From Odontesthes bonariensis (Eukaryota; Chordata; Actinopteri; Atheriniformes; Atherinopsidae), in NCBI RefSeq assembly GCF_027942865.1, contig NC_134515.1, positions 20,048,227 to 20,112,226 on the forward strand: a stretch of DNA of 64,000 bases. Direction: 5' to 3'. Position numbers and translations under genes: made by a program. Of the stretch, positions 13,597-50,018 are shown in pieces; the stretch's first letter is position 1; each line of letters starts with the position of its first letter. The notes under the pieces were generated by a model that searched no databases, was not told where the DNA came from, and saw only the letters and a program-made list of their open reading frames with translations.

Positions 13597-15864
13597 TTAC
13601 AAATCCTTTCCCAGCCTTTCAATTTCATCGAGGAAGAAGTCCATGTCCTTGTGGGAAATGAGTGGAGAAAACACAGTCACACGAAAAAAATTGCCTATGT
13701 TTCCAAGAGGTTGGTAGCCCACCATCATGGTGCCTTGTTTCATCATCCGCTCCTTGATGATCGGAGCCACCTTTCAACGAAAATGAAAATACACAAAAAG
13801 AGACAATTGTTGAATTCTGTGTTCTTAATAAGAATGCCTCAGATTATACCTTGAACTTGAATGTGCGTATCTGCCATATCAAGAAGGAGTCAGAAATCTC
13901 AAAACACTGATACTTCAAATCTGGACTCTTCACTGATGTGAAGCAAAAGTAAATGACTCTTCACTTACTTTTGCCAGCCTGTTCTGGTAATCTGCGTTTC
14001 CCTCCATCCCTCTCAGACTCGGTGGAATGAACCAGAAGCAAACATTCACAAACTCCGGCTGTCAGTGGAGATAGAATCCAAAGATGGAGTGATAATGTTG
14101 TGCTCAAAAATAAAAAATAAGAAAATGCTTTAGATGTAAATTTACCTCTCTCAAAAGAAGGAACCCATCTCTTTTTTTCATTCGCTCCACCAAATACCTG
14201 CAAGAGTAAGCTGTTACATTCAATTGATCTCAGGTACAACCTGTTGTTGAACGAAACCACGTAAGTTCGGTTTATGAAAACGGAGATTTAAACTAATGCT
14301 GTATTAGAGTGGATAAGCAAAGATGCCGTAAGAGGGGTGCAGAAGTAGCCAATGTAAAAAAACACGCAAATGATCCATTTTCTTCAGATTTTTATCCAGA
14401 ATAAACAAAGCGTAAACTGCCCTGTCACTGAAAAGAATTCAGTTAGTCTGATATGCATAAGATAAAATAGTAGCACTTCAAAGTTCTAACCTTTAAGTAA
14501 AAGTTTGGTGACACAGTTTAACTACCTGCTTGTTATGACCCAGGTCACAGAGTGCTGCATGAAATGGACAGTGACACAAGCGTTAATGAGTTTTATTTAG
14601 AGCTGTTAAGCTATTAAAATGTATAGTTGAGATTATGAATGTGAATGTGGCTGAATTCAAATATGCTACCTACAAACGGGCTATTACTGGCGAACTCTAA
14701 AAGGGTGGCATTGTGGGTAATCTGGCTGCGATGTGATTGTTGTAGTCCTGGAAGTGAGTTGACTGAAATGCATTGGACAGAATATTCAACGTCAACAATT
14801 AGGTATCTATACAGGTGCAGGCTCCAGGATAACTGCTGCCCAAATGTCGTTCACATGGTTTAAATTTGCATCCCCATCTTACCATGCTTTTACTGATCCA
14901 AACAGTAAAAGCATGTCAGGGAGGCCACTCACCGGGCTTCAGTGAAGACACCTCTCTACTACCACTACTACTACTGAGAGCCACAATTTTTGGAAATATT
15001 ACAACTTTGAACACTACTGTCGAAGTTTGCTGAAGGTCGACTGATCGGTGCGGAGTGTAATTTGTTACCAGGCCAAACGCCGTATAGGCTGGCAGGTGAT
15101 ATTGTCAGCTGAATGGTACTCTGACGTATGCAAAACTCGCTGATTCAAAAAGTGCAGAGTAATTTCTTCCTCCTGATTTGTACGACAGTTGGCTGCGGTA
15201 CATGGAATGGGCCTTTAATCAGGGATCTAATTACGTATTCACTTAATTTAACACAGTGCTTGTTTAATGGTGTTTAAGTGAGATTGAGTTTGTGTGTTAA
15301 CTCTTGACAGCTTAAGTGTTTTCATATTAAAAAAAAAAAAAACTGAAAGCAATCAAGACGGTTAAGGCAGTGAAGCCCATGCACCACACAAAGACTTCAC
15401 TGCAGCTGTAAGGGCACCGGGAATTCAGCAGGGTGGAACAATGCTTTATTTACCTCACATGGAGGAATGCTTTGTCAACACGCTCTTCCAAGCCAGCAGA
15501 GCCAACAGCTTTCCACATCAGCCACAGCTTCAGACAATCCACTTTGCGGCTGCACTGGACAGATTTATCTCCGATGTCAAGATTAACATCATAGAACTTG
15601 TCTTGCTGGAAGAGGTATGAGGCGTTGGCGCTGTGGCACCGCTTCAGCAAGTTCTGTGGAACACAAAAGGTTGGTTGAGTCGAGAAAAGAATCTAAACAA
15701 AGCAAGAGTAAAAACTGTAAGCCCGTCCTATCAAAACCGTCGGAATTTCTAATTGTGTAGTTTCATGAAACCAAACCGTGGTATCCTTAAGCAGCAAGAC
15801 CGAACACTGCAGGCCCGCCACCAGCATCTTGTGTGGATTCCATCCCACTGAATTTGCTCTAGTA

Positions 15865-15868
15865 ACAC

Positions 15869-15933
<65 letters not shown>
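15865..15933. repeat. CA microsatellite in a csad intron
   Basis: A run of about 33 CA units with one CG interruption near the left end. It lies directly upstream (minus sense) of the exon that encodes the PLP-lysine motif, so it occupies the place of the polypyrimidine tract as an alternating GT run. Confidence 0.95.
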
Positions 15934-15934
<1 letters not shown>

Positions 15935-17249
15935 CAGCTAATGACCATTACTGCCAAACTTTGCAGTTTTGATTATCCAAGTTGAATATTGTCTTCAGTA
16001 TGTTGCAAAATGCATCTTTCTTGCTTGCACGTTAATGCCTGTCAGCTCCTTTCATCAGATGCTTGTGCTGCTTGGAAAAGAGCACACTTCCTCCCCATGC
16101 AGCCTGAAAGAAGTGGCAAAAAGACAAAATGTGGGAGTTCTCTCAGATTTACCCAAACACAGAAATAGTCTCTAAAAATCAACGCCTGCCAACTTAGATT
16201 AGTCTCCCCCTGGAGCACTCACGTCGACGTGCAGCCAGAGATTGTGTTTCTCACAAACATCAGCTATGCGGTCCAGTGGGTCAAAGGCACCCTGCACTGT
16301 CGTGCCTGACGTGCAGCTTACAAAGAACGGGACTGCACCCTGAGAGGAGCAAATGGAAAGTGAGTGCAGTTTCCTTTCGCGTGGACTTTCAAGGCTCTGG
16401 TCGGTTCGAGCCAGAAAATTCAACCCGACATGCCTTATGCACGTGTATATTGGGCTTACTGAACATGAGTAAATTTACCAGAGATTTGGACAACTCTAAT
16501 TTTTCATCCAGGTCCTCAGGAATCATTCTGCCTCTGTTGCGAAGGAAAAAAAGCATTAATGGGGTAACATAAAGAAAGGAATATACCAATTAGTGTGATC
16601 CCTGGGATTAAGACAGCAAAGATTTATCAATTTCTTTTGGTGAATTTTCAAATTTATAAAATGACACAAGTTGACATGTTCAATGTGTTTATAGCAGTTT
16701 TGCTTAATAAATTATTTCAATAGCCAACAAGTAATTTACAACTAACCTAAGCTCTTACAGTAAGCAATCAATTACCCTTCATCCACTTTCACCATGATGA
16801 CATTGTCCCAAAACCCAGAAACGCAGCACCTTTCTTCACCGAGTAATGGCTCTGGAAAACATGGGAATGCATCCTTCAGTCATCTGGCACAAAAAAATCT
16901 CAGAAACTTTTAGTCTAATGAATGAGTCAGGCGTCCTGACCTCTGGAGATGTAAAGACGGTCATTTGTGGGAGACCCCTCAACCCCTGGCTTTTGACCTG
17001 TGGGAAGAGTTTGTAGCGTGCGAGGTTCATGGCATACATGTTTGAGGTGGAACCCCCGGGGCAGAAAATACCATCACCTTCTGTCCAGCCCACAAGCTGA
17101 CGTAATGCCCTTAAAACCTCAGTCTCCATCAGCACAAAGACTGGTGCCACTTCATAGGTGAAGCTGCCAATGACAAGAAATATGTCTGATCATTGATAGG
17201 TTTTAAGTCATACAGTAGTGTACTTGTTGCAACTCATTTCGCTGTGTAT

Positions 17250-18200
17250 TATACAATGACTTGTGAACACCAGTGCTTTCTCAGTTTTTGAACACTCGGG
17301 CTGTTCGTTTCTGCACGTCTCAGACACAAAAATCTGTGAAAACACAGATGGCAGCAGTAATGTGGTTTCATAGAACGAGCCATGGCACCACTAACCAGAG
17401 CAGCAGTGGCCGTCCTCTTAAAATAAAAACATTGCAAAGTGCTTCAAAATTAGCACAAGAAAACCGAGTTCTGGTGCAGTTCCGACAGTGTGACACTCCA
17501 TGATGCCAACATCAGTGGATGGCATCCAAAAACTAATCCCATACTTGCTGTTGGGCAGAAAATCATAAGATTAAACTTTGCCAGACAACATTAAAAGGAG
17601 CCTGACAAACACTGGGAGCACATTCTTTGGTCAGATGAGACAAAGACAAATATGCTCTGTTCAACTGAGGATCAGTATGTTTGGGATGAACCTGGCCAGG
17701 ACGACAGCGGTGAAAGCAATGACCTAGCAGTGAAGCATATAGAAGAAAGTAGGACAACGTGTTAAGGAGATGGCATTTATAGATGGCACCGTCAATGTAA
17801 ATGGTTAGTTAATCAAAGCCATCTGGGAAAAGGACAGTCGCTTTAGTGAACTACACTCAAATCAGAGCACCATAAAAAGCCAGTTGCTGAACAGGAGCTA
17901 CTTTATTCAACTGATATCTTGATTAAAATCCAACAATAGCAGCTAGTACAGGACAGTGGCCCGTCAGAACTTCTGTGTTAGGAGCCTGGCATGATGGATT
18001 CGGGTTTAATTGTGATCTTGTTGTTTCAGCAAATCCAGCCGCCTCGTAAAGTAAATGAAAGCCTGCAGATATACCAGACAAAATGACTCCCAGTCTCCAG
18101 ACTTTTAGGAGAGGAGGACTATTCATGCATGGTAGCGGACTAAACCTCCATTTCAAAATCACAGAGGAGTTTCTAAAAAAGAAAAGTGTTAAACAAAAAA
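17250..18200 (+). mobile_element. Decayed Tc1/mariner-like relic in a csad intron
   Basis: The intron between csad exons 4 and 5 is about 1.4 kb, unlike the other csad introns. On the plus strand near 17,599-17,700 one frame reads PDKHWEHILWSDETKTNM and shortly after QYVWDEPG, the central part of a Tc1-type DDE transposase (W-S-D-E-T-K, Y-V-W). Upstream, about 17,290-17,500, a basic frame with SSSGRPLKIK resembles the DNA-binding linker. Frames are broken and I could not find clear inverted ends, so the limits are approximate. It runs antisense to csad. Confidence 0.6.
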
Positions 18201-19201
18201 AAAAATGACATTGTCAAGAATGTCCCAAAAAATAAAAATGAAATTGCCCCGTTTAAAAAGAGAGCAAAAGGGTGAGACACCACTCTGACACGAGAAACTG
18301 AAAAAAATGCCTAAAACACAACAGATATCCCGAATGTTTTTTTTCTTTCTTTCTTTCATCATTGGTCTCCGTCATGCTGTGGACGGTCCAATCATCAAAA
18401 CACATTATTTTGAGAAAAAGGAGATTTGAATCATAGTGATTTATCACAGTATCATATTCAGTCTAAACTTTAGTGAAACTATCTGGATATTTCTTCCATC
18501 ACTGCCTCACTGGGTCAAATATATCTGCTTTGCTGTTTTTTTTTTTGGTATTTCTTACAGGTTAGTGTTGAGAGCCTAGGTGAGGAAACGTCCAGCCAAG
18601 GCATGATAGTCCACACCACCAAACTGCTGATTGAAGAAATGGGGGTGACCTGAAAGTGACAACAAGAAGAACCATCAAGTTTGAAAAAGAATCAGTTTGT
18701 AATACTGTTTCGGCTGTCTCTGTCAGTCTTCCTTGTCTTTATGCTGTACTTGGCGACATCTCTCACTCTCTGCAGGAGCCTGGCTTGTGGTTCCCCAGTG
18801 TCTCTCAGCTGCAGATCCAGCTGCAGCGCCAGCTCATCGGGCTCTTTCCACTCACACACCTGCACGAAAAACACACAAATTGTGGTTTTTGTTCAGCAAA
18901 CCAACTGTAATATGATAGGTGAGACATTTTATGCTTCGGGAAACACCTTCTGTTTGACATCTGTGCCTTTGCAGAGCACCTCCTCCACAATAATCTTAAA
19001 GGCTTCGTTCAAGAAGAGTTGGCCCTCCGCATGGTCAATGAGAGGCTCACTCAGGTCACGGAGAGTTGGCTCCATTGTCTGTCCGTCTGCTGCGTTTAAA
19101 ACAGTTCAAACAGAAACACAGTGAGTAAAGGGCTGCAGTTCAAAATAAACAGACAGATACCACACACTGTACTTACACGATAATGGGGACACGTGAGCCA
19201 T

Positions 19202-20620: not shown

Positions 20621-21464
20621 TTAGTCAGTCTCCAACAGGCATTCAAGACTTTCAGGAGGCAACGCCCAGTCTTCCTGACTGAGGAGGGAGTGCAGATGAG
20701 CAGCAGTGGCTTTTCCTCGCTGGCGCGTTCGCCAGTAACGCAGCATGGCGAAGACTCGCTCCACATGGAGTGAATGGTCCTCTTCAATCTGCTCCAGCTT
20801 CACAGACGAGATGTCCAGAGCCAGTCTGCCAATCTCCCTCCAAGACCTGCCGATGGAACGAGCCACGGACATCAGCTGCCTCTCCTTCACTAAGCCATGG
20901 TCTGTGCAATGAGACAGCGGCGGATCTTGTAGGCGATGGCTTCTCTTGGAAGTGGAATACATTTCATTGTACTGTGACTCACCCTTGCTGCAGGTCTGTT
21001 TGGTTGGAACTATATCTCGTAATTCAGGAGCTTTTCTTTTTCTTGACACGTCTTTTCCCCCTTGTAAAATTAAGAAAATTTAAATTTAATGATTCAAATG
21101 AACATTTAATAATGAGACTGCTGACTTTTTCACTTTTTTTTTTTTTTTTTTTACCTGAACACAGAGTTTGGACTTGCACATCTTTAACAAAACACAGCAT
21201 TGGGTAGGTCTCCTGCAGCGCCTGTTCTTCCAGCAGGTCGAGCAGTCCTTGAGCTGCTTCTGGACCTCTCTGGATGACATGATCCAAAAGGTCTCTCACC
21301 TTCTCACTGGGAATTCGGCAAGATTTCACTTGCTGGTAGCCGTGTGGAGACAGCAGACAGCGAGAGTCTGCGTGCTGCAGCACAAAATCTGCATCGGCGC
21401 TCAGAATCTCGATAAGCTTTGCCTTGTGGCGTCTCAGCAGTTGGATTTCTGGCTCCTCAGCCAT
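20621..21464 (-). CDS. CARD and death-domain adaptor, CRADD/RAIDD-like
   Basis: A cytosolic adaptor with an N-terminal CARD and a C-terminal death domain, the design of CRADD (RAIDD), which links death-domain scaffolds such as PIDD to initiator caspases. Exon 1 is 21464-21155, from the ATG of MAEEPEIQLLRR. Exon 2 starts at 21060 and the stop is at 20621. Read straight through, exon 2 gives 249 residues; with an 81-base intron at 20982-20902 it gives 222. The CARD covers about residues 4-90 (LLSPHGYQQV, RGPEAAQGLLDLLEE, YPML). A basic linker (SRKRKAPEL) follows. The death domain covers the last 100 residues (ARSIGRSWREIGRLAL, IEEDHSLHVERVFAMLRYW), with wording closer to FADD than to human CRADD. 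Human CRADD is 199 residues. It may be a fish-specific relative rather than the strict orthologue, since mammalian CRADD is not next to CSAD. No lesions seen. Confidence 0.75.
21142..21152. repeat. Poly-T tract beside the CARD-exon donor
   Basis: On the plus strand a long T run (about 21,134-21,152) ends immediately before the donor of the CARD exon, so on the minus strand the intron begins GTAA followed by many A bases. The donor itself is intact. Confidence 0.8.
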
Positions 21465-22110
21465 GACTGGGCGACCCAGTGAATGGAAGGTTAGAGACAC
21501 GCAACAATACTGAATGGGCAGAAGTACTTTAATGTTATTTGTGTGCAATATAATAGAAATTATAACTGAAAAAGACTCATTTAAAAACCTGTCAGCATTA
21601 ATGAAAAATGCGGCGCAGGAGGAGAGTTTTCTATTTGACAGAGTTGCATCTCATAGCGTGAATATGAGGACTATAAAGTGGTAATAAGTATAGACCTATA
21701 CTACCATATCGCGCATATATCTATATTCTACATTGTATATCAGGTCAGCGATATCTGCTATAACGTAAGTTTGTTTACAATAGGAAAACGTCCCAAGTCC
21801 AACAGTTTTTTTTTTCTGTAAACCTAACCTTGTGTGGGTATGCGTGCTGTCGTCCACTAACAGATGCGCTGAACAAAGTCTCCTACAGGAAGCACGCCGC
21901 TGTGCAACAAGCAAAACGTATCTGCATGTGCTCCTCTCAAACGCTTCAAGAGCGCCGTTTTAAACACGCAACCAGTTCAAATCTCCTAAACTTTCTTGGT
22001 AGAATCCCCTGCCTCCTTCCTTCCTCCCTCAGCTTCAGCTTTTTTCTTCTGTGTTTTTTTTTTTAAATAAAACTATCTGTTCCCACTGGTCCATCCTCTC
22101 TGTTTGCCTC
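21465..22110 (-). promoter_or_regulatory. Upstream region of the CARD-DD gene
   Basis: The 5' UTR and promoter should be here, since the ATG exon is first and no earlier coding exon is seen. The stretch 21,830-21,960 has scattered CpG sites and short GC-rich blocks. I see no clear TATA box or other named site. Confidence 0.3.
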
Positions 22111-48773: not shown

Positions 48774-50018
48774 TGTTTGTTTGTTTGTTTCTTTATTTGT
48801 TTCAAATCTGTATACAGAATAGAGTTCACAATTAGCTACAACACTGCGATTTGAAAAGGGGATGGAGGAAGCTTTGCTTTTAATATGCCAACCCCTCACT
48901 CAACCGCTCACAACAAAACAATCACAAAATTCACAACAAAACAAACATAAAAACACAATTCACTACAATAACTCTCAACACAAACACAGGACAAAGATAG
49001 AGACACAGCCAGGCCCAGACAAACTCCAACCCTATACCCCTCTCCCCACAGAATATACATGTGTATTTACATATACATACATACACATGTATACACATAC
49101 AAAAATATATATACATACACACATATATACACATATACACACATAACATACACAAAAATAAAAAATAAAATGACCAATAGTTAATACAATAGGTTTTTGG
49201 GCATCAGTCACTCTCCTCCTGGTATTTCCTCATCACCTTTCTTTTGAACATTATTTTAAACTTTACTAAATTTATACAGGTTTTTGTTTCCTCTGATAGA
49301 CTGTTCCATAATGTGACTCCCCTCACCGAAATACACATAGATTTCAGGGTTGTTCTTACTTTTGGTTGGTATAATTTATTAATTCCCCTTAGTTTGTAAT
49401 TGTGGTGAGCTTCCCTATCTTGAAATAGGTTTTGAATATTACTAGGAAGAGAATTTTTCGATGCCCTGTACATTATTTGAGCTGTTTTATAATTAATCAA
49501 GTTGCACAGTTTTAAATTGAAGATGTTGAGGAAAAGTGTGTTGGTGTGTTCATTATATTTAACGTGATGAACAATTCTCATGGCTCGTTTTTGAAGTGTG
49601 ATTAAAGGTAACAAATTTGTCTTGTAACAGTTTCCCCAGATTTCTATACAATATCTTAAATATGACATTATAAAGGAGTGATATAGTATAAATAAAGCAC
49701 TTTGATTTAATACAAAACTACAGCGTTTCATCACACCGACACATTTAGCTTATACTTTTCTTGCGTTATTTTATTCAGAAGTTTCTCCAGGTCATCCCCT
49801 GAACATAATATATTTGTATCATCTGCACATAGAATAAATGTCATGATTTTTGATATTTTACACATGTCATTAATATAAAGTAAAAAGAGAGTTGGCCCCA
49901 AAATTGAACCTTGTGGGACCCCACATGTAATTTCTCTGCATATAGATTTATGTTGATCAACCTGAACAAGCTGCCGTCTGCCCTGCAAATAGCTCTCTAG
50001 CCAGTTGTATGGAGTTCC

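Follow-up and report, generated by a model that had tools for sequence, protein, structure and literature searches.

The stretch of DNA analysed here (the window) comprises 64,000 nt from the genome of the pejerrey, Odontesthes bonariensis, and carries on its minus strand, at 13597..19201, the locus of csad, the gene for cysteine sulfinate decarboxylase and the main one for taurine synthesis. The exon map recovers 14 coding exons in order, with a joined frame that starts MAHVSPLSS. All 13 introns are retained, so that the locus lacks the missing introns of a processed pseudogene, and exons 7 to 14 form a single clean frame with the NPHK motif of the pyridoxal phosphate (PLP) lysine and a normal stop. 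The gene is broken by a nonsense codon in exon 4, a 4-base deletion in exon 6 and a GG donor after exon 3. It is very probably a young unitary pseudogene of the O. bonariensis lineage, formed after the split from the grunion genus Leuresthes. The features are as follows.

13597..19201, minus strand: csad locus, 14 coding exons, probable unitary pseudogene in this assembly (exon map, identity matches, no second copy found)
19177..19201, minus strand: csad exon 1 with the ATG, 25 bases (exon map)
18947..19089, minus strand: csad exon 2, 143 bases (exon map)
18733..18859, minus strand: csad exon 3, 127 bases, the length of gadl1 exon 3 (exon map, gadl1 comparison)
18731..18732, minus strand: intron 3 donor GG, a lesion (boundary set by gadl1 exon length)
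18559..18649, minus strand: csad exon 4, 91 bases (exon map)
18576..18578, minus strand: TAG at codon 123 in exon 4, a lesion (joined frame; glutamate in the Leuresthes and Menidia records)
16941..17163, minus strand: csad exon 5, 223 bases (exon map)
16776..16851, minus strand: csad exon 6, 76 bases (gadl1: 80), with a 4-base deletion near 16804-16803, a lesion (exon map, gadl1 comparison)
16479..16533, minus strand: csad exon 7, 55 bases (exon map)
16223..16339, minus strand: csad exon 8, 117 bases (exon map)
16039..16103, minus strand: csad exon 9, 65 bases, the gadl1 exon length (exon map)
16037..16038, minus strand: intron 9 donor GC, CAG|GCATTA, a possible lesion (exon map)
15865..15933, no strand: (AC)34.5 microsatellite next to the exon 10 acceptor, on its upstream side (repeat inspection)
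15777..15858, minus strand: csad exon 10 with NPHK (PLP lysine), 82 bases (exon map)
15454..15653, minus strand: csad exon 11, 200 bases (exon map)
14146..14197, minus strand: csad exon 12, 52 bases (exon map)
13969..14058, minus strand: csad exon 13, 90 bases (exon map)
13597..13770, minus strand: csad exon 14 with the normal stop, 174 bases (exon map)
20621..21650, minus strand: cradd, open frames with CARD and Death domain, the upstream neighbour of csad (domain matches)

The paralog gadl1 of the same genome serves as a ruler for these boundaries. From the exon with VCEW (exon 3) to the last exon, the lengths in csad/gadl1 are 127/127, 91/91, 223/(110+116), 76/80, 55/55, 117/117, 65/65, 82/82, 200/200, 52/52, 90/90 and 174/174; the gadl1 counterpart of csad exon 5 is split in two and is one codon longer. 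Exons 1 and 2 differ in length (25/19 and 143/191). Because the remaining lengths match within one genome, the loss of 4 bases and the boundaries at the GG (18732-18731) and the GC (16038-16037) are fixed. An earlier note on this DNA had named the ordered exons, NPHK, the normal stop, the nonsense codon, the exon 6 deletion and the GG donor, and all of these are found on the map. It had also counted the GC donor after exon 9 as a lesion. The dinucleotide is present, however GC donors are natural in a small share of vertebrate introns, and the exon 9 donor is therefore a possible lesion at most and no proof alone. Its sequence is a poor donor in comparison with the consensus.

Beyond the TAG (18578-18576), the next in-frame stop is codon 224, and the frame breaks near 16804 in exon 6. 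As the TAG closes the frame ahead of the PLP lysine and the frameshift follows downstream, a complete CSAD is impossible from a normally spliced and translated transcript; inactivation of the kind that defines a unitary pseudogene is represented by the TAG, the 4-base deletion and the GG donor. Rescue by read-through of the TAG is improbable, with C at −1, G at +4 and the frameshift still behind it; the TAG of a zebrafish csad read-through allele is flanked instead by A (−1) and C (+4), according to PMC5484112. Skipping of exons 4 to 6 would preserve the frame (91+223+76 = 390 bases), but would remove 130 core residues and would still require the dead exon 3 donor. The HPHFFNQQ stretch in exon 4, set against the CSAD of structure 2jis, was considered as damage and rejected, since the Leuresthes and Menidia records are the same up to one residue.

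Two repeats lie within the introns. At most 10 bases separate the (AC)34.5 repeat from the exon 10 acceptor; the repeat takes the expected place of the pyrimidine tract and may weaken splicing. A worn repeat in intron 4 (window 17380-17960) has 21 further matches in the genome at 67–80 % identity.

That the lesions are sequencing or assembly errors is barely credible. They are read from the assembled sequence, which leaves room for such errors, but these would have to be of three kinds and fall within 1.5 kb of coding sequence. Moreover, 15 open gadl1 exons and one single-frame ado gene are clean in the same assembly, which makes chance or base error unlikely.

The read-through protein scores best with CSAD among the solved structures (2jis, 747 bits; 6zek, 734 bits), followed by GADL1 (6enz, 679 bits) and GAD2 (2okk, 552 bits). 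Among its best 120 matches the top protein records are teleost CSADs, with Leuresthes tenuis first at 94 % and Menidia menidia next at 87 %. Fish also have gad3, and an identity as GAD3 was rejected, since the structure scores and the top teleost protein records both point to CSAD, whereas GAD3 is nearest to GAD1/GAD2 (PMC4962313). Two protein models fuse cradd-like and CSAD sequence, P0010 from Pholidichthys (CSAD, Death, CARD) and P0042 from Polymixia (CSAD, CARD), and this joining indicates that csad stands at its ancestral place beside cradd. With CSAD as best match and cradd adjoining, the locus is orthologous to csad of other fish, and the name csad given to it in the earlier note stands.

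A six-frame search of 187 contigs (945 Mb) of the assembly returned 36 matches, which belong to this csad locus, to four paralogs and to a single further locus that is more distant. By exon appearance the paralogs are gadl1 (C6), two gad1-like genes (C17 and C19) and a gad2-like gene (C25), of which gadl1 was checked further. The search for a second intact csad, which had been proposed beforehand, found none in these contigs, the other five loci being at most 67 % identical. It is accordingly most improbable that the locus is an extra tandem or retro-copy with the real csad elsewhere, an explanation that would have to accommodate the kept introns, the adjoining cradd and the identities of the 36 matches. 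On the kept introns and the genome search, a processed or duplicate copy was rejected.

The CSAD of relatives was compared as protein records, in which csad is intact in close relatives: those of L. tenuis (P0001) and M. menidia (P0002) are whole. A further predicted L. tenuis isoform, X2 (P0065), is without 101 residues that match exons 5 and 6 together and would lose part of the PLP fold.

For the polarised count of differences, the first 64 CSAD matches were taken; nine of unnamed source, the duplicate species record P0025 and the 727-amino-acid model P0010 were dropped, leaving 53. Pejerrey csad and Leuresthes differ at 26 positions, of which 11 fall on the pejerrey branch and 8 on the grunion branch, with 7 unpolarised (Menidia as outgroup). 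The comparison at invariant columns used 17 CSAD records chosen by hand, two from silversides and 15 from elsewhere, and, for GADL1, 17 of the best 120 matches, which also served for the laxer count below. At the 245 columns invariant in the 15 other CSAD records, pejerrey csad departs once, the grunion twice and Menidia four times. When each of the 15 is left out in turn, departures number 0 to 12, so that the broken pejerrey gene lies below most intact records. Under a laxer rule, with agreement required in 94 % of 51 records and 269 columns counted, pejerrey csad has four departures besides the lesions, two of them common with the grunion, and the grunion and Menidia have three each. With so few missense changes, the loss of csad looks recent, as had been supposed, and selection acted until shortly before, or while, the lesions arose.

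Some of the same observations weigh against a csad fixed as a young unitary pseudogene. The missense changes show no sign of relaxed selection, and the chance of at least three lesions with 3 to 8 neutral missense changes is 0.03 to 0.25, an estimate that takes assumed values for the indel rate and the transition weight. Three hard lesions beside so few missense changes are therefore somewhat unexpected, a mild surprise. Additionally, one assembled genome is at hand, and the null haplotype could be polymorphic. The lesions might then mark a null allele segregating in a species that still has a working csad, which is improbable but deserves more weight than base error or a second locus. Both the single assembled sequence and the very low missense load (1 of 245 invariant columns), as in a gene still selected in the population, are consistent with such an allele. 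However, several independent lesions on one haplotype take time to accumulate. No O. bonariensis CSAD is named among the best 120 protein matches, though an O. bonariensis AMH record exists; this argument is weak, as the lists show one name per 90 % cluster and members may be hidden. O. bonariensis GADL1 is likewise missing from the best 120 GADL1 matches, although that gene is open.

In O. bonariensis, gadl1 is intact where csad is broken: its 15 coding exons are open and encode 522 amino acids plus a stop, with AG and GT at all 14 introns. According to PMC13326419, O. bonariensis is the one genome of the South American sister tribe to the grunion. The state of grunion gadl1 is read from a predicted protein record, P0121, the sole Leuresthes GADL1 among the best 120 matches, which is labelled LOW QUALITY PROTEIN. 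It is without stretches present in 8 of 8 other aligned records, including the histidine and lysine of the PLP motif (WNxHK); by pattern, the motif is also missing in three other of the best 120 GADL1 matches. At the 246 columns invariant in 16 other GADL1 records, the grunion shows 13 departures and 8 gaps and the pejerrey 7 departures and no gaps; the 16 records themselves show 0 to 8 departures, one with a gap. The laxer rule gives 15 departures for the pejerrey and 25 with 10 gaps for the grunion, 10 places being common or nearly so. Pejerrey gadl1 is open, but its departures come close to the normal maximum, and it has a Q to K change in an LFQQDKFYD stretch that is constant in the other aligned records.

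By these protein comparisons, gadl1 seems decayed and csad kept in the grunion, with csad broken and gadl1 kept in the pejerrey. Reciprocal loss between the two is a good lead, and the breakage of opposite members in sister lineages suggests that csad and gadl1 may be able to replace each other. The fuller proposal, that sister tribes lost opposite members, that the pejerrey lives on GADL1 and the grunion on CSAD, and that the pair is interchangeable enough in silversides, is tentative and on balance doubtful. Loss of either member in turn may be more widespread among fish. Among the best 120 matches for each enzyme, where each 90 % cluster again shows a single name, Melanotaenia boesemani, Betta, Anabas and Channa have GADL1-like records listed and none in the CSAD list, and Menidia has a CSAD listed and no GADL1. 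Owing to the clustering, the missing Menidia GADL1 and Melanotaenia CSAD are not counted as evidence.

Decarboxylation of cysteine sulfinate to hypotaurine would have passed to gadl1, while the cysteamine route (ado) and diet would help to supply taurine; relaxed selection on csad would be the consequence of all three. Pieces of cdo1 lie on C7 and two ado genes on C2 and C28, one ado being a single open frame of 254 amino acids, and hence the upstream step and the cysteamine route exist. With gadl1 open as well, the alternative routes raised in the earlier note are possible. Mammalian GADL1 can decarboxylate cysteine sulfinate, the specificity of CSAD being 5- to 35-fold higher, and in CSAD-deficient mice the taurine of plasma, liver and brain falls by 70 to 90 % (PMC7367687). 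The activity of the mammalian enzyme, albeit less specific, makes a take-over by GADL1 possible in the pejerrey, where present-day production of hypotaurine by GADL1 is proposed as a hypothesis.

The same source assigns the specificity residue as Tyr in GADL1 and Phe in CSAD (PMC7367687). It was placed here by alignment, as the residue following NQL/NQQ, and at this position pejerrey GADL1 carries the CSAD-type Phe. Phe occurs in 27 of the 117 readable GADL1 matches (of the best 120), the grunion's included, and in 88 of 105 CSAD matches (of the best 120). A compensating change in pejerrey GADL1 is therefore rejected, as a residue common to so many GADL1 records, grunion among them, was not acquired after the loss of csad.

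The pejerrey is a silverside of lakes and estuaries, mainly a freshwater planktivore, and the link drawn in the earlier note to carnivorous marine fish is not supported for it. The same habits count against the explanation that csad was lost because prey supplies enough taurine and gadl1 plays no part, as does the state of the paralog, which is open in the pejerrey and seemingly broken in the grunion, a fish with a whole csad record. On the other side, dietary taurine is described as essential in many fish under culture (PMC6770007), and many carnivorous fish are said to be without a complete pathway, unlike zebrafish (PMC5484097). A purely dietary explanation has a real chance, somewhat below even.

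Low CSAD in cats and some farmed fish is a matter of weak expression or activity of a kept gene; weak taurine synthesis would be the shared feature, but in the pejerrey the csad gene itself is broken. Further near systems are a hominid pseudogene, a zebrafish allele and the grunion record. The hominid GAD3 unitary pseudogene (PMC4962313) is likewise a single-copy PLP decarboxylase lost in place, in synteny and kept in relatives; the pejerrey gene differs in being csad, in its few and recent lesions and in its fish host. Zebrafish csad sa9430 shares a premature TAG in a fish csad, but there it is a laboratory-strain point mutation that lies 20 codons from the regular end of the frame and undergoes read-through (PMC5484112), whereas the pejerrey TAG is at codon 123 in an unfavourable context and is joined by a frameshift and a dead donor. 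Leuresthes P0121 likewise seems to show decay within this enzyme pair, in the sister tribe, but there the other paralog is concerned and the decay has gone further (13 departures plus 8 gaps at 246 invariant columns). In zebrafish, models point to CSAD as the step that controls taurine synthesis, and embryo knock-down lowers taurine and raises mortality (PMC5484097). No report of a csad pseudogene in a fish was found among the literature titles and starts of abstracts listed.

A living fish with a broken csad, beside a sister tribe with a seemingly broken GADL1, makes the share of GADL1 in taurine synthesis directly testable. If the reciprocal loss is true, nature would have run a double experiment in pejerrey and grunion, in which the enzyme behind taurine and the one behind beta-alanine could be told apart. 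As the pejerrey is a farmed fish, the loss of csad also bears on its feeds.

Two further observations are unconnected with csad. Besides one amh on C20, which stretches of the O. bonariensis AMH record P0241 match at 84 to 100 %, three more amh copies of equal score are located at C16:849812-850237, C16:1366148-1366573 and C32:123235-123660 (L048, L049 and L050). Their closer match is the AMH cluster record P0242 of O. argentinensis, ahead of O. bonariensis P0241, and we take them to be probably amhy of a male. The two copies on C16 are 516 kb apart, which may be true or an assembly duplication. Within the window, a minus-strand open frame of 181 codons at 49204-49749 gave no Pfam family at E 0.01; its translation resembles the end of a long interspersed nuclear element (LINE) reverse transcriptase.

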